DNA of 64,000 nt, taken from positions 124,001 through 188,000 of the forward strand of contig KB906757.1 of the NCBI GenBank assembly GCA_000381605.1. The letters are read 5' to 3'. Shown here in pieces: positions 2,564 through 49,158 of this stretch. The notes under the pieces were generated by a model that was not told the DNA's origin, did not search any database, and worked only from the letters and a program-made list of their open reading frames with translations. Numbering within the stretch: the first letter of the stretch is position 1; each line of letters opens with the position of its first letter. A program made the position numbers and the translations under genes. This DNA is from Acidobacteriaceae bacterium KBS 89 (GTDB lineage: Bacteria; Acidobacteriota; Terriglobia; Terriglobales; Acidobacteriaceae).

Positions 2564-3943
2564 TCAGGTGAGGGGCTTGAGGTCTCCGAAGACGGTGGGG
2601 AGAAGTTCGGAAACTGTTGGGTGAATGTGGACTGCGCGTTGGATGAGGGTGTAGGGGGCGCGGGCGTACATCGTGTCGATGATGCAGTGGATGGCTTCGT
2701 CTCCGCCTGTACCGAGGATCGAGGCGCCGAGAATCTCTTTTGTCTGCGCGTCGACGAGGACTTTGATGAAGCCTTCGGTCTCGCCCTTCTCGATGGCGCG
2801 CGCGACCTTAGTCATGGGGCGGGTTCCGATGAGGGCTGGCTTGCCGGATTTACGAACCTGTTCTTCGGTGAGGCCGACTCGGCCTAGCGGCGGGTCGGTG
2901 TAGAGGGCGTAGACGGGAATTCGGTCGGTGACGCTGCGCGGGTCATTGTCGAGGAGGTTGGCGGCGACGATTTCGAAGTCGTTGTAGGCGGTGTGCGTGA
3001 AGGCGCCACGGCCGTTGCAGTCTCCGAGCGCCCAGATGCCGGGGACGTTGGTGCGGAGCTGATCGTCTACTGTGATGAATCCACGTGCGTCGAGGGCCAC
3101 GCCGGCTTTTTCGAGGCCGAGGTCGTGGGTGTTGGGTGTGCGGCCGACCGCGAGGAGAACGTGAGAGCCGATGCTGTCTGTTGGGTCGTCGGTGCAATCG
3201 ACACCCGCGGCGATATCGTTGCCGCGTGGTTCGAAGTGAATGCATTCTGCGCTTGTACGTACGTGGATGCCCTCTTTTTCGAGGAAGCCTCGAATGGACG
3301 CGGAGACGTCTTCGTCTTCACGCGAGACGAGGCGGGGGGACTTCTCGATGATCGTGACTTCGCTTCCGAAGCGGCGGAAGATCTGTCCGAATTCGAGGCC
3401 GACGTAGCTTCCACCTACGACGATGAGATGGCGAGGCAGAGTTTCGAGTTCGAGGATGCCGACGTTGTCCATCCAGGGGACTCGGTCGACTCCGGGAAAG
3501 TCGGGGACGACGGCGCGACCTCCAACGTTGATGAAGATTTCTTTGGCGGTCAGGAGATCGTCGCCGACACGGACTTGATTGGGTGATTCGAAGTGGGCGT
3601 GCCCGGTGAAGGCAGTGCAGCCCTTCATGTTGCGGAGATAATTCTCGAGCCCGTCGCGCGACTTGGCGACGATCTGGTCTTTGCGGGCTTTCACGGCCTT
3701 CATGTCGACGGAGACTGCGCCCTGTACGGTTACGCCGTATGAAGCGGCGGTGCGGGCTTTTTGTGCGACGTAGGCGCTGGCGACGAGAGCTTTTGTCGGC
3801 GTGCATCCAGTGTTGACGCAGGTGCCTCCGAAGAGCTTGCGTTCGATGAACGCGACGGTGCGACCGGATTGCGTGAGTCGTCCGGCGAGGGTTGGCCCCG
3901 CCTGACCGGCTCCGATGATGATGGAATCGAAGGTCGTAGGCAT
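2564..3943 (-). CDS. FAD-dependent pyridine nucleotide-disulfide oxidoreductase (class I, MerA-like)
   Basis: 459-residue cytoplasmic flavoprotein that should transfer electrons from NAD(P)H through FAD to a redox-active disulfide. Visible are the FAD-binding GAGQAG (residues 11-16), the active-site disulfide CVNTGC (C42 and C47), a second Rossmann fold GGSYVGLEFG and the C-terminal HIHPTVSE that supplies the His-Glu base dyad. It resembles mercuric reductase but lacks the N-terminal HMA metal-binding domain and the C-terminal vicinal Cys pair, so mercury reduction is not supported; the physiological disulfide is unknown. Its ATG overlaps the TGA of the upstream DUF4126 gene by one base (TGATG), implying translational coupling. 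Confidence 0.9.
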   Translation of the reverse strand: MPTTFDSIIIGAGQAGPTLAGRLTQSGRTVAFIERKLFGGTCVNTGCTPTKALVASAYVAQKARTAASYGVTVQGAVSVDMKAVKARKDQIVAKSRDGLENYLRNMKGCTAFTGHAHFESPNQVRVGDDLLTAKEIFINVGGRAVVPDFPGVDRVPWMDNVGILELETLPRHLIVVGGSYVGLEFGQIFRRFGSEVTIIEKSPRLVSREDEDVSASIRGFLEKEGIHVRTSAECIHFEPRGNDIAAGVDCTDDPTDSIGSHVLLAVGRTPNTHDLGLEKAGVALDARGFITVDDQLRTNVPGIWALGDCNGRGAFTHTAYNDFEIVAANLLDNDPRSVTDRIPVYALYTDPPLGRVGLTEEQVRKSGKPALIGTRPMTKVARAIEKGETEGFIKVLVDAQTKEILGASILGTGGDEAIHCIIDTMYARAPYTLIQRAVHIHPTVSELLPTVFGDLKPLT

Positions 3944-4404
3944 CAGACTCTTGAGACGATGAAGAGAGCTCCGAGGATGGCCACCGCGTCTTCGAGCAGG
4001 GCGACGGGAAGGTCCTTGCCAGCAATCTTTCCCAATGCGCCTCTTACTGCTGAGCCGCCAAGAGTACCTGCAACCGCGCCGATTGCGCCTGCGATGAGAC
4101 CGCCGATGAGAGAGTCGCGCGAGGCCCCGAGGACTGCACCGGAGAAGGCTCCGGTCACGACACGGGTGATGAACTGGGGTGGAACCTTACGGCTGGGCGT
4201 CTTCGGCAGCTTGTCATTGACGAGTTCTCCGAGCGCCAGAAAGCTGAGGATGTAGCGAGTGATGGGAGAGCTCATGAAGTTGAGGGAGCTGCCGGCGAGG
4301 CTGAACCAGCCCAGACCGGCTCCCCAGGCTACGATTGTCGGGGCCATCAGGGCGCGGAGTCCGGCGATGACGCCGATGAGAAACGCGTAGACAAGGATGG
4401 ACAA
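3943..4404 (-). CDS. DUF4126 family membrane protein
   Basis: Small hydrophobic protein of about 153 residues with roughly four membrane segments (LVYAFLIGVIAGLRAL near the start, then a Gly/Ala-rich region GGLIAGAIGAVAGTLGG). Function is not known for the family. I place the start at TTG 4404 because AGGAGG lies five bases before it; the open frame continues upstream without a better ribosome site. It is followed, with a one-base overlap, by the flavoprotein disulfide reductase, so the two form an operon. Family recognition is from the conserved RALMAP and PPQFITRVVTGAFSG-type regions. Confidence 0.8.
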   Translation of the reverse strand: MSILVYAFLIGVIAGLRALMAPTIVAWGAGLGWFSLAGSSLNFMSSPITRYILSFLALGELVNDKLPKTPSRKVPPQFITRVVTGAFSGAVLGASRDSLIGGLIAGAIGAVAGTLGGSAVRGALGKIAGKDLPVALLEDAVAILGALFIVSRV

Positions 4405-4543
4405 GAAGACCTCCTGGTAACGTGAGATTTCTGATTGTTTATGTAACTTGGCCTGTGCTGAGAAGCCGGACAACACCTTTGGCGGCAGAACCGAGATTTC
4501 GGTTCGGCGTGGTGAAAAGAATTGTACCGAAGAAACAAAAACT

Positions 4544-4966
4544 TCAGGCGAGGCGTTTTTTCAGGAGATCGCGGGCGATGGCGTCGAGGACCCCGTTGAG
4601 GAACGGGATGGACTCGGGTGCGGCGTAACGGCGGCCGATGTCGAGGGACTCGTTGATGATGATAGCGGCGGGGGTGTTGGGGAAGCCGATCATTTCGGCG
4701 ACTGCGGCACGGATGAGATTGCGGTCGACTACGGCCATGCGTTCGATGCGCCAGTTCTGGGCGTGGGCTTCGATGAGGACGTCTATCTCTTCCTGACGGG
4801 TGGTGGCGACGCGATAGAGATCTTCGGTGAAGCCGCGGGTTTCAGCGTCGACGTCTGCGACGGAGGCCCAGAAGAGCTTGCGGACTTCGTCGGGCGTTTG
4901 TTTGCCGAGGTCGCCCTGGAAGAGCATCTGCATGGCGAGTTCGCGGGACTTGCGGCGAGTGCCCAT
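4544..4966 (-). CDS. nusB: transcription antitermination factor NusB
   Basis: 140-residue all-helical RNA-binding protein that with NusE/S10 binds boxA in rRNA leaders and supports antitermination. The N-terminus MGTRRKSRELAMQMLFQ and the IINESLDIGRRY...FLNGVLDAI C-terminal segment are typical, and the length is standard. The start codon overlaps the TAA of the upstream ribH gene (TAATG). The ribH-nusB pair is a common bacterial arrangement and supports the assignment. Confidence 0.96.
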   Translation of the reverse strand: MGTRRKSRELAMQMLFQGDLGKQTPDEVRKLFWASVADVDAETRGFTEDLYRVATTRQEEIDVLIEAHAQNWRIERMAVVDRNLIRAAVAEMIGFPNTPAAIIINESLDIGRRYAAPESIPFLNGVLDAIARDLLKKRLA

Positions 4967-5859
4967 TATTTTTTCACCTGCGCATTCCCGGCTGCGAGTT
5001 TGCGCTGGATGGAGACCATCTCGATGGCAGCGGTTGCGGCCTCGAAGCCCTTGTTACCGGCCTTCAGGCCTGCGCGGTTGAGGGCCTGTTCCAGTGTTTC
5101 GCAGGTGAGGACGCCAAAGGCGTGAGGGACGCCGGTCTCCTGCTGGGACTGGCCGATGCCGCGGGCGACTTCGTTGTAGATGGCTTCGTAGTGAGCGGTT
5201 TCGCCGCGAAGGAGGCAGCCGAGTGTGATGATGGCATCGAATTTCTTGGATTCGGCGAGCGTGCGGGCGGCGGAGGGGACCTCCCACGCGCCGGGGACGC
5301 GGACGATTTCGATGTCTTGCTTCGCCGCGCCGCTGCGATGCAAGGCGTCGAGCGAGCCTTGGAGGAGGCGGTCCGTGATGACGGTGTTCCAGCGGGTGGT
5401 GACGATGGCGAAGCGCATGTTGGCGGCGCTGAGGTCGCCCTCGATAGCAGCGGGTTGATTGTGCAGCGGATTTTCGGACTGCCAGAAGCCTAACTTCATC
5501 TCTGGCGTGAGCTGCACGGTGAAGAGGCGGCTGGTCCAGTGGGTCGGTACCGGGGTGGAAAGGATGGTCGCAATCTCTTCGGTGCGGTGGTTGACTAGGA
5601 GCCACTTTTCTACAAGGGCGTGTATGTGGTCGAGCTGCGTAACTTCGACAAGGATGGGCGGCACGGCCGGCGGACGGCCGGTGACGAACTCGAGGTTGCC
5701 GACGGGGGCGAGGAAGGAGGCACCACGACCCTCGGCATCCTGCCAGCCCTTGCCTTGCTCGAAGCCGAGGGCAGAAAAGAGGCTGGTGAGGCGATCAAAT
5801 TCAGCGCCCGGCGTGCCCGCAGAGGCCACGGCGCTGATAAACGTGATTCCCTTAATCAT
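4966..5859 (-). CDS. ribH: 6,7-dimethyl-8-ribityllumazine synthase with N-terminal VOC-like domain
   Basis: Residues 148-297 are lumazine synthase, the penultimate step of riboflavin synthesis (condensing ribityl-aminouracil with dihydroxybutanone phosphate). Visible are TRWN (usually ARFN), GAWEVP, GETAHYEAI carrying the catalytic His, and FGVLTCETLEQA...RAG. Residues 1-147 are an extra domain resembling a vicinal-oxygen-chelate (glyoxalase-like) fold, beginning MIKGITFISAVASAGTPG; normal RibH is about 155 residues. An internal Met at 148 could also give a standalone RibH. It is the first gene of the ribH-nusB operon and is divergent from the enoyl-CoA hydratase, with an 83-bp shared upstream region. 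The lumazine synthase call is firm; the VOC assignment is by general pattern only. Confidence 0.9.
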   Translation of the reverse strand: MIKGITFISAVASAGTPGAEFDRLTSLFSALGFEQGKGWQDAEGRGASFLAPVGNLEFVTGRPPAVPPILVEVTQLDHIHALVEKWLLVNHRTEEIATILSTPVPTHWTSRLFTVQLTPEMKLGFWQSENPLHNQPAAIEGDLSAANMRFAIVTTRWNTVITDRLLQGSLDALHRSGAAKQDIEIVRVPGAWEVPSAARTLAESKKFDAIITLGCLLRGETAHYEAIYNEVARGIGQSQQETGVPHAFGVLTCETLEQALNRAGLKAGNKGFEAATAAIEMVSIQRKLAAGNAQVKK

Positions 5860-5942
5860 AGATTCGATTGTATCGTCTGGTGAGTACGTACGAGATTGCT
5901 GTCACTTGCTGAACTGGATTGAACTGCCCAGGGGGGATACCC

Positions 5943-6725
5943 GTGAACTACGAAACGTTGCTGTGTGAAGTAAAAGATCAGGTCGCGAAGGTGACGCTGA
6001 ATCGACCGGAGGTGCTGAATGCACTGAACTCCAGGGTCTTCAACGAACTGGAACATGCATTCATGACGCTGGCCGGGGATGCGCGTGTGCGGGTGATTCT
6101 GCTGACGGGCGCGGGAGAGAAGGCGTTCGCGGCGGGAGCCGATATCAACGAAATCAATCGTCTGGACATAGCGACGGGCGAGGCGAAGGCGCGACGAGGA
6201 CAAGAGGTCTTCCGGATGATCGAGACTTCGGGAAAGCCGGTGGTCGCGTGCATCAATGGGTTTGCGCTTGGCGGCGGATGCGAGCTTGCGATGGCCTGCA
6301 CAATGCGGCTGGCGAGCGAAACCGCCCGGATGGGACAACCGGAGGTGAAGCTCGGACTGATTCCCGGGTACGGCGGGACGCAGCGGCTACCGCGGCTGGT
6401 GGGACAGTCAATGGCACTGAAGCTGCTGCTGACGGGCGAGATGATTGGAGCGGCGGAGGCCCTGAGGATCGGGCTGGTGGATGAAGTAGTGCCGGCGAAT
6501 CGCCTGATGGAGCGAGCGGAAGAACTGGCGAAGACGATGGTTGGAATGGCCCCTCTAGCGATTGCAGGGTGCATGGAGGCGGTCCGATGGGGGAACGACC
6601 TAGGATTGGTATCGGCGACTGACGTGGAGGCGGAGATCTTCGGGCGGTTGTGCGGGACGGAGGACAAGGCCGAGGGGACCAAGGCGTTTCTGGAGAAGCG
6701 GCCGGCGGTTTGGCAGGGACGGTAG
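5943..6725 (+). CDS. enoyl-CoA hydratase/isomerase (crotonase family)
   Basis: About 260 residues. Should hydrate trans-2-enoyl-CoA in fatty-acid beta-oxidation. Shows the crotonase oxyanion-hole regions (AAGADINEI and INGFALGGGCELAMAC) and the second catalytic Glu region GQPEVKLGLIPGYGGTQRL, so both Glu residues of a true hydratase are present. I choose GTG 5943 because the GGGGGGA ribosome site sits just before it; an in-frame TTG 24 bases upstream lacks one. The chain-length preference cannot be read. Confidence 0.9.
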   Translation: MNYETLLCEVKDQVAKVTLNRPEVLNALNSRVFNELEHAFMTLAGDARVRVILLTGAGEKAFAAGADINEINRLDIATGEAKARRGQEVFRMIETSGKPVVACINGFALGGGCELAMACTMRLASETARMGQPEVKLGLIPGYGGTQRLPRLVGQSMALKLLLTGEMIGAAEALRIGLVDEVVPANRLMERAEELAKTMVGMAPLAIAGCMEAVRWGNDLGLVSATDVEAEIFGRLCGTEDKAEGTKAFLEKRPAVWQGR

Positions 6726-6787
6726 CTTTCGTTCCTTTGTTTCCAGTGGCGAGATTTTGAGGCTTTTGGAGGTGGGAAGGGCTTGGT

Positions 6788-7339
6788 ATGCTGGTATTCG
6801 TGCGTAAATCACTGCTACTCTTCCCCGCCCTCCTGCTTCCCATTGCCCTGACCGGCTGTACGCGGACTGCTTCGCCCAGCGTCACCGAAGCGAAGGCCAT
6901 TGCGGCACAGGAGCGACAGGAGATCAACCTGGCGCGGCAGCAGATGGACCTGATTCCGCCGCCGTCGAAGACACGCTATATGGCGGTGAAGAGTTTGACG
7001 CTGTGGGAGAACCCTTACCTGACGGTGCAGGGCGGAATGGTGACGTTGCATGTGGTTCAGGCGGATGCGAACAGGAGCGACCTGGGTGTGGGTGGAATGC
7101 TGCGACCGATCGGTGCGAGGCGGCAGGACCTGAATGTGCGTGTGAGCGATCTGCCAACAGCGCTGAATGCCGTACCGCAGAACTTCTGGCCGTATGGGCG
7201 TGTGGTCGCGGTGGAAGAGGCTCATGAGGTGCCGGCGAGTGCGCGGCACGAGGTTCGGCGGAACATGGAGACGGTGATCAAGACGCTGAATGATCTGGGT
7301 GTGGTGGTGTATGAGTGGAGCGATAACGGCCGGAGTTGA
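6788..7339 (+). CDS. hypothetical lipoprotein
   Basis: 183 residues with a lipoprotein signal: basic start (VRKS), hydrophobic core and lipobox LTGC (Cys 24), so probably anchored in the outer membrane. The mature part begins with a helix rich in Ala, Glu and Gln (residues 35-52) followed by a mixed domain of unknown fold. AAGGG precedes the ATG by about six bases. I do not recognise the family. It is codirectional with the hydratase upstream and the symporter downstream, but no functional link is evident. Confidence 0.75.
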   Translation: MLVFVRKSLLLFPALLLPIALTGCTRTASPSVTEAKAIAAQERQEINLARQQMDLIPPPSKTRYMAVKSLTLWENPYLTVQGGMVTLHVVQADANRSDLGVGGMLRPIGARRQDLNVRVSDLPTALNAVPQNFWPYGRVVAVEEAHEVPASARHEVRRNMETVIKTLNDLGVVVYEWSDNGRS

Positions 7340-44540: not shown

Positions 44541-46235
44541 ATGAAAATTATCGCTCTTGCAGCCGCAATGGTCCTTTCAATCTCTCCGATGGCAGTGGGC
44601 CAGATATCGTCTTCAACCCCCGGTCAAGGCCGCTCCATGGTCGTAACAAAGTTCGGGATCGTCGCGGCCCCGCAGTTTCTCGCGGCGCAGGCCGGCGCAC
44701 ACATACTTGAAGAAGGTGGCAACGCCATCGATGCGGCCATCGCAGCGAACGCCGTGATGGGCGTCGTGCAGCCCTATGTCAACGGCATGGGTGGCGACCT
44801 CTTCGCTCTCTACTACGAAGCGAAGACCGGCAAGCTCTACGGCCTCAACTCCAGCGGATGGACTCCTAAGGCCCTCACCATCGACTACATGAAGGCCCAC
44901 AACATCGACAAGATCAATGACATCGGAGTCCACACCATCGATATCCCCGGAGCCGTCGCAGGCTGGGACGCGATGCGCACCCGATTCGGCACCCTTCCCT
45001 TCAGCCAGACCCTTGCCCCCGCAATCTACTACGCGCAAAACGGATTCCCCCTGGCAGAGCGCAACGCGCGTTACTGGGTTGCCAAGAAGCTCATCGACCA
45101 GCCCGGCTACAAGGAGACCTACCTGCCCAACGGAGTCGCCCCCAAAGTAGGCGATCTCTTCAAGAACCCTGCACTCGCAAACTCACTCCGTCAGGTCGCC
45201 GAGCACGGACGCGATGCCTACTACAAAGGTCCCATGACCGAGACGATGGTGAAGTTCCTTCAGTCCCAGGGAGGCGCCCACACCCTCGAAGACTTCGCCG
45301 ACTTTCAGCCCGAGTGGGTCGAACCCATCTCCACCACCTATCGCGGCTGGACCATCTACGAGCTGCCGCCCAACGGACAAGGAATCGCCGCCCTCTCCAT
45401 GCTGAACATCATGGAGCAGTTCCCCATGGCGCAGTACGGGCATAACTCCGTCGACGCCCTGCACGTCATGATCGAAGCCAAGAAGCTCGCCTACGCCGAC
45501 ATGTACCACTACGTCGGCGATCCAAGGTTCACCGCCGTACCCGTAAAAGAGATGGTCTCAAAAGATCTGGCCAAAGAGCGAGCCAAGCTAATCCAGATGG
45601 ACAAGGCCTCCGCCCAGACCGTTCCATCGAAGATCGCGCAATCACTCAACGCTCACGGCAACTCGACCATCTATCTCTCCACCATCGATAAAGACGGCAA
45701 CATCGTCTCGCTCATCCAAAGCAACTTCGCGGGCTATGGCACAGGCATGGTCGCACCGGGCCTTGGGTTCTCCTTCCACAACCGCGGCGCAGGATTCCAA
45801 CTCACCCCCGGACTTCCCAATTCGCTCGCCGGACACAAGCGTCCTCTCCACACCATCATCCCCGCCTTCATGGAAAAGGGTGACGTCCACATCGGCTTCG
45901 GCATCATGGGCGGCTGGAACCAGGCGCAGGCCCACGCACAGTTCGTCGCCAACATCGTCGACTACGGAATGAACGTACAGGCAGCGCTCGAGCAGCCGCG
46001 TTTCACAAAAGGCACCTTCGATGGTCTCGACGTGGAGATGGAAGAGACCATCTCAGAGGCAGTCAGAGCCGGACTCACCAAACGCGGACACGAGATTCAA
46101 CTTCTCGAACCGCTCTCCTTCACCGTCGGCCAGGGTGAAGCCGTAGTCAGAGACAGCACTCGCAGCGTCAACTTCGCAGGAGCAGACCCACGCTCCGACG
46201 GAGAAGCAATCCCGCAAGGCCCAAACACAAAGTAG
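44541..46235 (+). CDS. ggt: gamma-glutamyltransferase
   Basis: 564-residue Ntn-hydrolase, exported (signal peptide MKIIALAAAMVLSISPMAVGQ). Precursor autocleaves before the nucleophile Thr, here T376 in GNSTIYLSTIDKDGN. Other motifs: ILEEGGNAIDAAIAANAVMGVVQP, GMGGDLF, GQGIAALSMLNIMEQF, HTIIPAFMEKG. Cleaves glutathione or gamma-glutamyl peptides in the periplasm. The usual TTH before the nucleophile is NST here. Followed by a terminator. Confidence 0.94.
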   Translation: MKIIALAAAMVLSISPMAVGQISSSTPGQGRSMVVTKFGIVAAPQFLAAQAGAHILEEGGNAIDAAIAANAVMGVVQPYVNGMGGDLFALYYEAKTGKLYGLNSSGWTPKALTIDYMKAHNIDKINDIGVHTIDIPGAVAGWDAMRTRFGTLPFSQTLAPAIYYAQNGFPLAERNARYWVAKKLIDQPGYKETYLPNGVAPKVGDLFKNPALANSLRQVAEHGRDAYYKGPMTETMVKFLQSQGGAHTLEDFADFQPEWVEPISTTYRGWTIYELPPNGQGIAALSMLNIMEQFPMAQYGHNSVDALHVMIEAKKLAYADMYHYVGDPRFTAVPVKEMVSKDLAKERAKLIQMDKASAQTVPSKIAQSLNAHGNSTIYLSTIDKDGNIVSLIQSNFAGYGTGMVAPGLGFSFHNRGAGFQLTPGLPNSLAGHKRPLHTIIPAFMEKGDVHIGFGIMGGWNQAQAHAQFVANIVDYGMNVQAALEQPRFTKGTFDGLDVEMEETISEAVRAGLTKRGHEIQLLEPLSFTVGQGEAVVRDSTRSVNFAGADPRSDGEAIPQGPNTK

Positions 46236-46317: not shown

Positions 46318-46421
46318 ATTTCCCTGAATAACTGGCTCTAGCAAATAAAACTAGAAAAAATAATCGATTAATCCCGTAAATATCCTTGCTATTCTCCTGC
46401 GACCTATGGCAAAGTACACTC

Positions 46422-46553
46422 TGCGTAGGAGAAGCCCGATGAATTTCAAATCGCACAACACGATGCGTAGGTCCCTGGGACGAGTCAGTCTCCCGGGCGA
46501 TCGCCGGGCTTGGTTCACCGCTGGTTATAACCGCTAGCGCTCGATCCTACGCA
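46422..46553 (+). ncRNA. candidate structured RNA or leader upstream of the Y RNA array
   Basis: A perfect 9-bp long-range stem (TGCGTAGGA at 46422-46430 with TCCTACGCA at 46545-46553) encloses 114 bases, with inner hairpins such as GGGA...TCCC (46477-46494) and CCCGG...CCGGG. The 5' strand contains the AGGAG that would serve the small ORF inside. It lacks the TGGCG...TCGYTWAWTCCC motif of the four downstream Y RNAs, so it is a different element. Confidence 0.35.
46439..46537 (+). CDS. candidate 32-residue basic peptide ORF
   Basis: ATG 46439 to TAG 46535, encoding a basic peptide (starts MNFKSHNTMRRSLGRV, ends WFTAGYNR). AGGAG lies seven bases upstream but is part of a 9-bp stem that pairs with the region just downstream of the ORF. 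Could be a leader peptide or chance. Low confidence. Confidence 0.3.
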   Translation: MNFKSHNTMRRSLGRVSLPGDRRAWFTAGYNR

Positions 46554-46575
46554 AATCGCTCGCAAAATCAATCAT

Positions 46576-46647
46576 TCCTGAGTGGCGAAGAGGCCAGTTA
46601 CTTCGACTTGGTCATCGCTACAACTGACCTCGCTTAATCCCTCAGGA
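46576..46647 (+). ncRNA. Y RNA-like element A (short form)
   Basis: 72 nt closed by TCCTGAG/CTCAGGA. Carries the shared Y-like internal loop: TGGCGA on the 5' side (46583-46588) and TCGCTTAATCCC on the 3' side (46630-46641), an upper stem (GAGG.CAGTT with AACTG.CCTC), then TACTTC (46599-46604). The apical loop is only about 22 nt and shows no tRNA-like parts. Located in the Ro60 locus. Confidence 0.75.
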
Positions 46648-46694: not shown

Positions 46695-46853
46695 TGCCAG
46701 TGGCGACAGAGAAGAGTTACTTCCTCCGCCTAACACAACGCAGGGAACGGAAATCCCTGCCGGAGCAAGACACTCTGGGACAGAGGCGTAGCCTCGACTT
46801 ACAAAGTTCCAAAGAGCACTTACTCCGAAACTCTTCTCGTTTATTCCCTGGCA
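46695..46853 (+). ncRNA. Y RNA-like element B (branched, non-tRNA apical domain)
   Basis: 159 nt closed by TGCCAG/CTGGCA. 5' TGGCGACAGAGAAGAGTTACTTC and 3' AACTCTTCTCGTTTATTCCC give the common core and a 9-bp upper stem AGAAGAGTT/AACTCTTCT. The apical part has nested hairpins: CTCCG...CGGAG around CAGGGA-ACGGAAA-TCCCTG, and GAGGC-GTA-GCCTC. No TTCGA T-loop, so the module is not a tRNA mimic. Confidence 0.75.
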
Positions 46854-46880: not shown

Positions 46881-47012
46881 GGCCGGTGGCGCAGATAGCA
46901 GTTACTTCGGCTCATAACCGGGTGGACGCAGGTTCGATCCCTGCCGCGGAGTAGTTCCGCGTAGCTCAGTGGTAGAGCACCTCATAGATCTGTTATCGCT
47001 TATTCCCCGGCC
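46881..47012 (+). ncRNA. Y RNA-like element C with tRNA-like module (YrlA type)
   Basis: 132 nt closed by GGCCGG/CCGGCC with TGGCG and TCGCTTATTCCC core and TACTTC. The apical module is a circularly permuted tRNA: anticodon-like arm CGG-CTCATAA-CCG (46908-46920, a Met-type CAT loop), T arm GCAGG-TTCGATC-CCTGC (46928-46944), acceptor-like stem CGCGGA/TCCGCG closed by GTAGT (46945-46961), D arm GCTC-AGTGGTA-GAGC (46964-46978). Matches the known YrlA design in which the acceptor end is closed and the body opens on the anticodon side. Confidence 0.87.
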
Positions 47013-47052: not shown

Positions 47053-47283
47053 ATGTACAAGTTGTTCGGTAAGAACGAAACTTCTGTCAATTTGAATTCT
47101 TTGTGCACAACTTGCACCAGCGCGCTCGTTCTCAACGGCTACGGCAAAGCCCAACAGAAGATCATGTGCACGTATGTACATCCAAACGTTGCAATGCCCT
47201 TCATCGTGAAGATCTGCTCTGGTTACTACAACAAAAACCAGCCAAAAAGGGTCATCGAAGGATTCAAGCCCACACCCATATAG
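47053..47283 (+). CDS. small four-cysteine protein 1 (Ro60 locus), unknown
   Basis: 76 residues. C18-x2-C21-x17-C39-x15-C55 with SLCTTCTSA, GY at 29-30, CTYVHPN, PFIVKICSGYYNKNQP. The same four Cys positions recur in its neighbour at 47354. Ribosome site GAGAGGG lies five bases before ATG. No signal peptide; zinc binding or a redox role is possible. It lies between Y RNA-like elements C and D, codirectional with Ro60. I recognise no family. Confidence 0.72.
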   Translation: MYKLFGKNETSVNLNSLCTTCTSALVLNGYGKAQQKIMCTYVHPNVAMPFIVKICSGYYNKNQPKRVIEGFKPTPI

Positions 47284-47353: not shown

Positions 47354-47650
47354 ATGGGCAAGGCATACATCAAGAACGGAACGCCCGTCGGCAACGAGTC
47401 GCTGTGCAGGACTTGCACGAATGCGCACATCATCGCCGGTTACCGCGAGTCTGAACTCATTACGATCTGCACCAACGTGGGGCCGAACTTTGTTCTTCCC
47501 TTCACGGTCTACGAATGCAGTTGCTACTACGACAAGAACCGTCCGGACTGGGAGCAGATGCAACGACTCGCAATTCATGTCACTCCGGGAACTTTGAAGC
47601 CGGTAGGCTTCAAAATCGGTGCGACCAGCCCCATCAACGACGAAGACTAA
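47354..47650 (+). CDS. small four-cysteine protein 2 (Ro60 locus), paralog of the upstream gene
   Basis: 98 residues, aligned without gaps to the upstream protein over the first 64 residues: both have C18, C21, C39, C55, SLC.TCT.A, GY30, CT.V.PN, PF.V..CS.YY.KN.P. It has one extra Cys (C57) and a longer C-terminal tail (HVTPGTLKPVGFKIGATSPINDED). The leaders are also similar (CCAGC hairpin, then AGAAAGA and a G-rich site), so leader plus gene arose by tandem duplication. Ends six bases before Y RNA-like element D. Confidence 0.72.
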   Translation: MGKAYIKNGTPVGNESLCRTCTNAHIIAGYRESELITICTNVGPNFVLPFTVYECSCYYDKNRPDWEQMQRLAIHVTPGTLKPVGFKIGATSPINDED

Positions 47651-47656
47651 ACCATT

Positions 47657-47785
47657 CGCCGGTGGCGATAGACAACGGATACTTCAGTGGTCGGAGCACC
47701 ACCAGCGATGGTGGAGTGCAGGTTCGAATCCTGTCACGAGCGCAATCTCGTGAGAGCTCATTCCGTTGTCGCTAATTCCCCGGCG
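47657..47785 (+). ncRNA. Y RNA-like element D with tRNA module opened in the D loop
   Basis: 129 nt closed by CGCCGG/CCGGCG; core TGGCGATAGACAACGGATACTTC and TCCGTTGTCGCTAATTCCC with a 9-bp upper stem GACAACGGA/TCCGTTGTC. The tRNA-like order is: D-loop 3' half plus GAGC (47686-47697), anticodon-like hairpin CCACCA-GCGA-TGGTGG (47699-47714), T arm GCAGG-TTCGAAT-CCTGT (47718-47734), acceptor-like CACGAG/CTCGTG closed by CGCAAT (47735-47752), and D-stem 5' strand GCTC (47756-47759). So the chain breaks inside the D loop. Ends 38 bases before the Ro60 gene. Confidence 0.85.
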
Positions 47786-47823
47786 ATCTTCCTCCAAGCC
47801 CGCACAAAAGGAGGTGCGACAAC

Positions 47824-49158
47824 ATGAAGCTGAACATCCTCAAGCTGGCCCATCTCGCGCGCCCCCGCACCCACGAAGGCGCACCCGCGGCCATCCTCAC
47901 GTTCGAGCAGGCACTCCGGCGCTCTGTCCTCTCCTGCATGCTCTGGGAGAACGAGTTCTACGAGTCCGGCGTAGCCATCGCAGGCCGCATCCGCGAGCTC
48001 GTACCGAAGGTCGCCCCTGAAAAGGTAGCCGCCCTCGCCGTCGAAGCCCGCACCGCGATGAAGCTTCGTCACCCGCCTCTGCTTCTGGTTCGCGAGATGG
48101 CTCGTCACGCGACCCACCGCGGTCTCGTCGCCGAAACCCTCGTTCGGGTCATCCAGCGTGCCGACGAGCTCTCCGAGTTCGTCGCCATCTACTGGGCTGA
48201 GGGGCGCCGTCCGCTCTCCGCACAGGTGAAGAAGGGGCTCGCCGCAGCGTTCACCCGCTTCGACGAGTACGCGCTCGCGAAGTACGACCGCGCCAGCGTT
48301 GTTCGTCTCCGCGACGTCCTCTTCCTCAGCCACGCGAAGCCGCGCGACGCGGAACAGGCAGAGCTCTGGAAGCGGCTCATCGCCAACGAGCTCACCACGC
48401 CCGACACCTGGGAGGTTGCACTCTCCTCGGGCGGCGACAAGCGTACGCACTGGGAGCGTCTACTCACCGAGCGCAAGCTCGGCGCCCTCGCTCTCCTGCG
48501 TAACCTTCGCAACATGAAGGACGCAGACGTGCCCGAGTCGCAGGTCGTGGCCGCGCTCGACGCGATGCGGACCGACCGTGTCCTTCCCTTCCGCTTCCTC
48601 GCTGCTGCCCGTCACGCGCCACAGCTGGAAGAGGCACTCGAGCGTGCAATGTTTCGTTCGCTCGAAGGGCGCGGAGCCAAAGATGACTTGGCACAGCTCG
48701 CCGGACACACCATCATCCTCGTCGACGTGTCTGGCTCCATGGTCGCACCGCTGTCGCGCCGGTCGCAGATGCTCCGCACTGACGCGGCTTACGGACTCGC
48801 CGTGCTTCTGCGCGAGATCGCCGAGAAGGTAACCGTGTACACCTTCTCGAACACCGCAAAGCGTGTCCCGCCCCGGCGCGGATTCGCTCTGCGCGATGCA
48901 ATGGAGTCGAGCCAGTCTCACAGCGGAACCTACCTCGGCGCCGCACTCGACGCCGTCGAAGAGCGATACGACCGCATCATCGTCATCACCGATGAGCAGT
49001 CGCACGACCGCGTCGCCGCCCCGCGCGGCAAGGGCTACATGATCAACGTAGCCTCTGCCCGTAACGGTGTCGGCTACGGCTCGTGGGTCCACATCGACGG
49101 CTTCAGCGAAGCGGTCATCAATTACATCCGCGAACTCGAAAACGTCGAGTCGCGCTAA
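47824..49158 (+). CDS. rsr: Ro60/TROVE-domain RNA-binding protein (Rsr ortholog)
   Basis: 444 residues. N-terminal HEAT-like TROVE domain (residues 1 to about 290; FEQALRRSVLSCMLWENEFYESG, LRHPPLLLVREMARH, WAEGRRPLSAQVKKGLAAAFTRFDEYALAKYDR) and a C-terminal von Willebrand A domain with an intact MIDAS (D301, S303, S305, T369, D390). Binds Y RNAs, and in Deinococcus is linked through a Y RNA to PNPase for RNA decay. Shorter than Deinococcus Rsr (531). AAGGAGG lies eight bases before ATG. Four Y RNA-like genes precede it. Confidence 0.95.
   Translation: MKLNILKLAHLARPRTHEGAPAAILTFEQALRRSVLSCMLWENEFYESGVAIAGRIRELVPKVAPEKVAALAVEARTAMKLRHPPLLLVREMARHATHRGLVAETLVRVIQRADELSEFVAIYWAEGRRPLSAQVKKGLAAAFTRFDEYALAKYDRASVVRLRDVLFLSHAKPRDAEQAELWKRLIANELTTPDTWEVALSSGGDKRTHWERLLTERKLGALALLRNLRNMKDADVPESQVVAALDAMRTDRVLPFRFLAAARHAPQLEEALERAMFRSLEGRGAKDDLAQLAGHTIILVDVSGSMVAPLSRRSQMLRTDAAYGLAVLLREIAEKVTVYTFSNTAKRVPPRRGFALRDAMESSQSHSGTYLGAALDAVEERYDRIIVITDEQSHDRVAAPRGKGYMINVASARNGVGYGSWVHIDGFSEAVINYIRELENVESR

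Follow-up and report, generated by a model that had tools for sequence, protein, structure and literature searches.

The stretch of DNA analysed here (the window) covers 64,000 nt of contig KB906757.1 from Acidobacteriaceae bacterium KBS 89. It contains a gene for Ro60, a ring-shaped RNA-binding protein, here with TROVE and vWA domains, on the plus strand (47824-49158; Pfam TROVE, E 6.4e-16; VWA_2, E 6.1e-6), whose best solved relatives are 9l5y and 9kop ("TROVE domain-containing protein", E 1.1e-25). Several RNAs with a Ro60-type handle precede this gene. One of them, element D (47658-47784, plus strand), is the main subject here, and the Ro60 gene begins 39 nt past it, with AAGGAGG in between. 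Further upstream lies element C (46882-47011, plus strand), a YrlA-type RNA with an intact D arm and an anticodon-side opening, which is matched by RF02553 and by R1, a covariance model of D-type relatives (see below). Element B (46696-46852, plus strand; R1, 27.7 bits, E 2.9e-5) is a handle RNA with a long insert and without a recognisable T arm. Its relatives, which are also long handle RNAs, occur in the Ro60 loci L003, L006, L007, L032, L033, L035 and others and share a conserved insert that is not tRNA-like (GCAGGG..CCCTGCCGGAG ... GCGGGACGGGGGCGTAGTCCCGA), and the family reads as a separate, recurrent type of Y RNA. Element A (46577-46646) was recognised by eye as a short handle RNA (TGGCGAAG, TTACTTC, AATCC) and is not matched by R1 at E 10. 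Between the end of the preceding gene at 46235 and element A, the region ~46410-46555 contains GC-rich repeats (CTGCGTAGG...CCTACGC) and tRNA-like words, for which Rfam gives no match at E 10. Two small ORFs lie between C and D (47053-47283 and 47354-47650), and their proteins, which have no Pfam match, share a C-x-x-C pattern near the protein start. A comparable small ORF is found upstream of Ro60 in L029, and it is possible that the two ORFs encode small metal-binding proteins of the Ro60 locus.

The sequence of element D, its predicted fold and its match to R1 identify it as a Y-type RNA, which has a Ro60 handle and a tRNA-like body that is opened at the D arm. The 5' side of the handle (47658-47678) is composed of the outer stem GCCGG (47658-47662), TGGCGATA and the inner stem GACAACGG (47671-47678), followed by the conserved handle motif TACTTC (47680-47685). 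Then comes the rest of a D loop, AGTGGTCG, with a G18G19-like GG, and the 3' strand of the D stem, GAGC (47694-47697), which together cover 47686-47697. The anticodon-like hairpin CCACC-AGCGAT-GGTGG (47699-47714) has a stem that matches tRNA-Val(cac) of the same genome and a loop that is not an anticodon loop. It is followed by the T arm GCAGG-TTCGAAT-CCTGT (47718-47734) and by an acceptor stem with a closing loop and without a free CCA end, CACGAG-CGCAAT-CTCGTG (47735-47752). After this hairpin the order is AGA, the 5' strand of the D stem, GCTC (47756-47759), ATT, and the 3' side of the handle (47763-47784; CCGTTGTC, GCTAATTCC and CCGGC), all on the plus strand. The opening is located at the 5' edge of the D loop, with AGTGGTCG entirely on the 5' side and GCTC followed by ATT alone. 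Judged by this order of parts, the body is a cloverleaf whose acceptor end is joined and whose opening lies at the D arm. Element D shares with bacterial Y RNAs the conserved basal two-stem handle, which has a conserved internal bulge, and the nearby Ro60 gene, and its handle is probably similar to that of animal Y RNAs.

The first-pass annotation of this DNA had placed GCTC at the far 3' end of the body and the D-loop rest with GAGC at its 5' end, and both the sequence and the secondary structure prediction that it proposed agree with this. The minimum-energy fold from RNAfold (47654-47788, -56.8 kcal/mol) contains all the parts including GAGC/GCTC, and none of 200 shuffles folds as low (z -3.58), while the centroid of the same stretch leaves the D stem open. 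The mean D-stem pair probability in the trimmed element is 0.31 and its tRNA profile score does not gain from rotation, so that element D of the window is a weak example of its type. R1, which was built without the window sequence, matches D with 74.3 bits (E 1.4e-17). It also matches element C with 70.8 bits and broken D-stem pairs, and because C scores similarly, the bit score reflects handle, T arm and acceptor stem and not the topology of the D arm, which was therefore judged from the D strands. In the window, Rfam gives no match at gathering level and ARAGORN predicts 0 tRNAs. RF00005 matches D partially (47680-47734) with 17.3 bits against a cut-off of 29, and D lacks the full tRNA cloverleaf with acceptor end and 7-nt anticodon loop. 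Since it has neither a free acceptor end nor a usable anticodon loop, the body cannot work as a tRNA.

Relatives of the Ro60 protein are present in 38 of 150 genomes of the family, and 80 named Ro60 loci from GTDB genomes were added. At threshold 28, a scan of 110 loci for the handle yielded 146 elements, spread over 73 of them, against none on the reverse strands, and an earlier and looser scan (threshold 26, first 30 loci) found 40 against one on the reverse. Handle-type RNAs are specific to the strand and the side of Ro60. R1 was made from 11 well-aligned D-type relatives, the rows being chosen in view of a plain MAFFT alignment of 18 D types that misplaced the 3' D strand in the window and some others. 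It gave 299 and 45 matches, from which 311 distinct handle RNAs were kept after removal by hand of same-contig duplicates and a few weak or off-locus rows. By script, 103 of the 311 have the YrlA order (D arm intact, 3' of the acceptor), 18 have a split D stem, 64 have T arm and acceptor without D arm, 35 have the T arm only and 91 have no T arm; these classes are rough, as at least 4 of the 64 are missed D types. The initial classifier made many accidental "both" calls and was replaced by a stricter one, which missed L044-5645, L035, L095 and L096, read by eye as D types. Two RNAs called split D types by script (L087 and L039) were rejected by eye. R1 was also run on whole genomes with strict filters and few candidates per genome. 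The resulting tallies (89 of 398 and 29 of 247) should not be taken for numbers of D types, as many of the matches near 30 bits probably arose by chance or from ordinary tRNAs, and the candidate L184, which resembles ordinary tRNAs, was discarded. Besides, small handle RNAs in four loci (L054 2074-2188, L059 5040-5154, L072 1630-1736 and L010 438-530) contain TTC-TGG(T/C)A-GAA beside an anticodon-like hairpin and a T arm. They may represent another reduced form, with a D stem provided by the handle.

The curated set contains 26 D-arm-opened RNAs, of which 22 come from Terriglobales-type loci (including the window), three from Alphaproteobacteria (L085, L095 and L096) and one from another family of Acidobacteriota (L186). 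Some of the Terriglobales-type loci are metagenome bins with odd titles, for example L074 ("Opitutia"), whose Ro60 falls inside the Acidobacteriota part of the tree. The first-pass annotation had named loss of the GCTC/GAGC pairing in homologs as counting against its reading, and the pairing is conserved: GAGC with a downstream GCTC or GCTT can form four pairs in 19 RNAs, three in six and none in one (L068), according to script output in which L044, L085 and L060 were corrected by eye. L068, which has no good partner strand, was retained among the 26 as a failure. A G18G19-like GG precedes the GAGC strand in 23 of 26 (L085 by eye). In the alignment of the 11 relatives, 87.5% of 351 cells pair, compared with 35.5-46.1% for versions slid by 1-3 columns. 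Two-sided changes occur in 20 pairs, whereas shuffling gives 9.9 on average and reaches this number in 0 of 500 cases. These changes affect all seven acceptor pairs and six of eight inner-handle pairs, and both the outer and the inner handle stems covary. In the D stem, three of four pairs are invariant and one shows a G-U change, which makes this stem conserved without covariation. Alignment of the anticodon stem is poor, and it pairs in 45.9% of its cells. Likewise, a covariation model favouring another fold had been named as evidence against the reading, and RNAalifold, given the 11 relatives and not the window, arrives unaided at the split D stem and gives no anticodon hairpin. The computed probability of the pairing between GAGC and its 3' partner ranges from 0.00 to 0.88 and is at least 0.3 in 11 of 24 scored D types.

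The D type is patchy on the Ro60 tree. On a quick tree of 89 rows its label needs 19 changes, and 64 of 500 shuffles are as low. The closest relative with sequence at this place (L002, Ro60 83% identical) has a handle RNA without a tRNA body. In the comparison of orthologous loci suggested by the first-pass annotation, the D type is thus represented by 26 curated RNAs and patchy among the relatives, and the window itself holds a weak member. The RNA at L164 1501-1625 (the same as L037 5839-5963; Granulicella sp. L46) is a D type whose T loop has shrunk to a GCGGGAACCCGC hairpin and whose D-loop GG is reduced to one G, with GAGC/GCTC kept.

A second setting was found in another family of Acidobacteriota (genome G560), where a D-type RNA with the handle GGCGAATGC (L191, 3614-3738) stands among tRNA genes. 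The array has 12 ARAGORN calls at 2727-5159, of which the one that overlaps a YrlA-type RNA is doubtful, and it is followed by a divergent Ro60 gene (5573-7147; vWA_Ro60, 65.3 bits; TROVE, 32.2) and RtcB (419.3 bits). Our profile A1 of Terriglobales Ro60 does not find this protein. With its GGCGAATGC handle and divergent Ro60, the D type of G560 indicates that D-arm opening also occurs in another handle and Ro60 lineage. In this Ro60-RtcB locus (L191, contig G560:C19, 2727-8638), tRNAs alternate with Y-type RNAs on the GGCGAATGC handle, one of them D-arm-opened, and the YrlA-type RNA at 5094-5159 is called tRNA-SeC by ARAGORN. The array may be a mobile or phage-type tRNA array.

In five relatives, four from Acidobacteriota (L042, L093, L165 and L169) and one from Bradyrhizobium (L110), the AGCT after the acceptor stem is gone and GAAG stands in place of the GAGC strand. 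This GAAG can pair with the CTTC of the handle motif TACTTC, which in these RNAs serves as the 5' strand of the D stem, across loops such as AGTGGTA and AACGGTA (GGTA in L110). The GAAG types share with D the handle, the anticodon-like hairpin, the T arm and the acceptor hairpin, as well as the place before Ro60 in L042 and L093. They differ from it in a complete 5' D-arm hairpin that uses the handle CTTC and in an opening between the acceptor and the D arm. When rows were picked by the 5' motif alone, the downstream AGCT was present in 16 of 21 rows with GAGC and in none of five with GAAG (chance with fixed margins 0.0038, by hand); one of the 16 (L109) looks spurious, and the intact-D-arm filter also removed genuine D types, among them window D, L033 and L056. 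In the curated set the figures are 23 of 26 and 0 of 5 (Fisher p 3.3e-4, to be read with caution, as the choice of GAGC rows was partly based on the 3' strand and the rows include relatives, which do not count as independent). The mean pair probabilities of CTTC/GAAG in the five RNAs are 0.23, 0.66, 0.61, 0.77 and 0.87. On the quick Ro60 tree, the GAAG locus L169 is sister of the GAGC locus L048 (support 84) and L042 (GAAG) of L166 (GAGC; support 80), and the GAAG label needs five changes, four of them forced by well supported branches. We read this as a D stem that has been kept through exchange of its partner, more than once, and this partner switch is the best evidence for a D stem.

From the order of the parts, the conserved handle and T arm, the closed acceptor hairpin, the conserved GAGC/GCTC and the repeated partner exchange, we propose that element D belongs to a subclass of Ro60-bound Y RNAs for which the literature searched gave no description, and in which a four-way cloverleaf is closed through the D stem and not through the anticodon stem. 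We give this explanation a probability of about 0.6. The D-arm-opened topology is highly probable on its own, and the functional part, which is drawn from work on bacterial Y RNAs, stands at roughly even odds. By analogy with that work, Ro60 would grip the handle, and the tRNA-like body would act as a module that recruits or positions a partner; the known partners of YrlA are PNPase and tRNA-modifying enzymes. Element D would then present the same rod of T arm and acceptor stem, with the elbow, from Ro60, hung by the D arm. With the handle attached at the D arm, the anticodon-like hairpin would be free and the elbow of D loop and T loop would face Ro60, which predicts a partner orientation, or a partner choice, other than with the neighbouring YrlA-type RNA. 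The different geometry of D and C suggested by the first-pass annotation would follow from their different attachment points.

It is also conceivable that D acts, perhaps in addition, as a cis-acting leader of the Ro60 mRNA, so that Ro60 bound to the handle tunes its own translation or processing. The D type is the handle RNA nearest to Ro60 in 18 loci, in 12 of them at 23-45 nt from the start, and the GAAG type is nearest in two, at 27 and 32 nt. The gap before Ro60, which has an AAGGAGG-like ribosome-binding site, would hardly accommodate a separate promoter. Element D is therefore probably transcribed with Ro60 in the first instance, so that a role in cis is conceivable. On the other hand, D or GAAG types lie 147-551 nt from Ro60 in eight loci, the nearest handle RNA is of neither type in 62 loci, other types fill the near spot in many loci, and a leader could act in trans as well. 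We consider the leader unlikely, though with enough in its favour to be kept in mind.

Another explanation is that the T arm and the closed acceptor hairpin are all that matters, and that D is the relic of a permuted tRNA whose D strands are left-overs and which is being reduced to a small hairpin of T arm and acceptor on a Ro60 handle. The 64 RNAs without a D arm, at least four of which are missed D types, and the 35 with a T arm only speak for it, and such reduced RNAs adjoin Ro60 in L055, L036, L063 and L045. The low D-stem probabilities in many members and L068, which has no partner strand, point in the same direction. Against this, GAGC and its partner keep three to four pairs in 25 of 26 RNAs, and in RNAs that have lost the 3' strand, the 5' one can change so that it pairs with the handle. 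We judge the relic rather improbable.

As for the proposed subclass, its closest known counterpart is YrlA. The crystal structure of YrlA is 6CU1. The basal stem of YrlA tethers Rsr/Ro60, and the tRNA-like domain, which is made up of the D, T and acceptor arms, binds PNPase and is modified by DusA and TruB (PMC8394870). YrlA superposes on tRNA as a circular permutation (PMC11472068). Element D resembles YrlA (RF02553) in its Ro60-type handle of paired 5' and 3' ends, its place adjoining the Ro60 gene, the T arm, D arm and closed acceptor stem, and the circular permutation of a tRNA. However, the opening of YrlA is on the anticodon side, and its D arm remains a hairpin (RF02553 consensus; PMC8394870), whereas D is opened at the D arm, with GAGC 5' and GCTC 3' of the body, and keeps the anticodon-like hairpin. 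Element C has the YrlA topology: the T arm is followed by the acceptor hairpin and by a D arm that is intact, and the handle is on the anticodon side, the intact D arm and the anticodon-side break having been noted by the first-pass annotation. RF02553 matches element C at 46895-47005 (45.3 bits, E 1.9e-8). The same model has no match to window D at E up to 10. In the loci of five relatives, it detects the C type in four (L033, L041, L047 and L048; 39.5-45.0 bits) and at E 0.01 never the D type. Neither C nor D reaches its gathering score of 69. That D folds as an ordinary YrlA, with the D-arm opening an artefact of reading, could draw on the similar R1 scores of C and D, but D has a single GCTC and a single GAGC on the two outer sides of its body, RF02553 matches C and not D, and the D-stem pairs of R1 are broken in C, so that such a fold is very improbable.

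The likeness of the D-arm-opened bodies to tRNAs was examined with a profile of 34 own-genome tRNAs, after rough trimming of the handle. Rotation into tRNA order raises the score in 20 of 24 D types and in none of five GAAG types, as expected if only the D types are opened inside the D arm. The exceptions are window D, L035, L068 and L096; window D scores 10.8 both unrotated and rotated, and 3 of 20 shuffles are as high. ARAGORN calls tRNAs in five of 24 rotated D types and one of five rotated GAAG types (L033, L038, L047, L163, L166 and L110, several with odd loops), in none of 29 unrotated bodies, and not in rotated window D. The window's own genome has 48 tRNAs. Among these, Val(cac) matches window D best, with a score of 49.5 compared with a shuffled maximum of 39.0 (42.5 without rotation), and Lys(ctt) matches element C best, with 81.5 compared with 46.0. 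The search of the host genome for a parent tRNA of D, which the first-pass annotation had called for, therefore gave a score above the shuffles but in Val(cac) only a lead. The two different best matches fit different sources of C and D and are no proof of them. Independent origins of the two elements, which had also been suggested, are not borne out: both have a common handle and the unusual loop-closed acceptor stem, and their bodies are too short to decide on descent.

In algae and archaea, permuted tRNA genes are spliced to working tRNAs through a circular intermediate. Element D resembles such genes, in which the 3' half of the tRNA comes before the 5' half (PMC4033280), but it has a Ro60 handle and no usable anticodon. 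That D is itself the gene of a working permuted tRNA, spliced to a normal one, is extremely improbable, as the window element is without a 7-nt anticodon loop, many relatives have 4-nt loops there, the 5' and 3' ends make a conserved Ro60-type handle, and the acceptor loops are 4-8 nt in most. The Ro60-tethered mimic that we favour has in common with viral and tmRNA mimics a tRNA-like fold in a non-tRNA RNA, and those mimics are not tethered to Ro60; in the table of PMC11472068, permutation is absent in the tmRNA fragment and non-circular in TYMV and BMV. In the literature searched, which covers the primary YrlA papers incompletely, tRNA mimicry by Y RNAs is described for one topology so far and no account of a D-arm-opened Y RNA was found, so that it may be new.

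In a wider sense, Ro60 loci of Terriglobales and some Alphaproteobacteria may run several tRNA mimics that differ in the arm by which they hang, a generalization that we hold tentatively and at somewhat less than even confidence. It would include three hanging points: the anticodon side (YrlA), the D loop (element D), and a point between the acceptor and the D arm, where CTTC is shared with the handle. If it is true, the face of the common tRNA shape that is presented would vary with the hanging point, so that PNPase or other tRNA-binding enzymes could be held by one Ro60 ring in more than one orientation. The third form would share bases between the handle and the tRNA fold, and Ro60 binding and mimicry could be interdependent. 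In practice, RNAs of the D type are missed by the Rfam model of YrlA. Neighbouring genes with a second opening point, and probably with a third one, amount to a natural experiment on what Ro60 complexes need of the tRNA shape: the rod of T arm and acceptor stem is always kept, the D stem is kept by change of partner, and the anticodon is not kept. The way in which a Y RNA orients its tethered enzyme would be directly testable with two RNAs from one genome.
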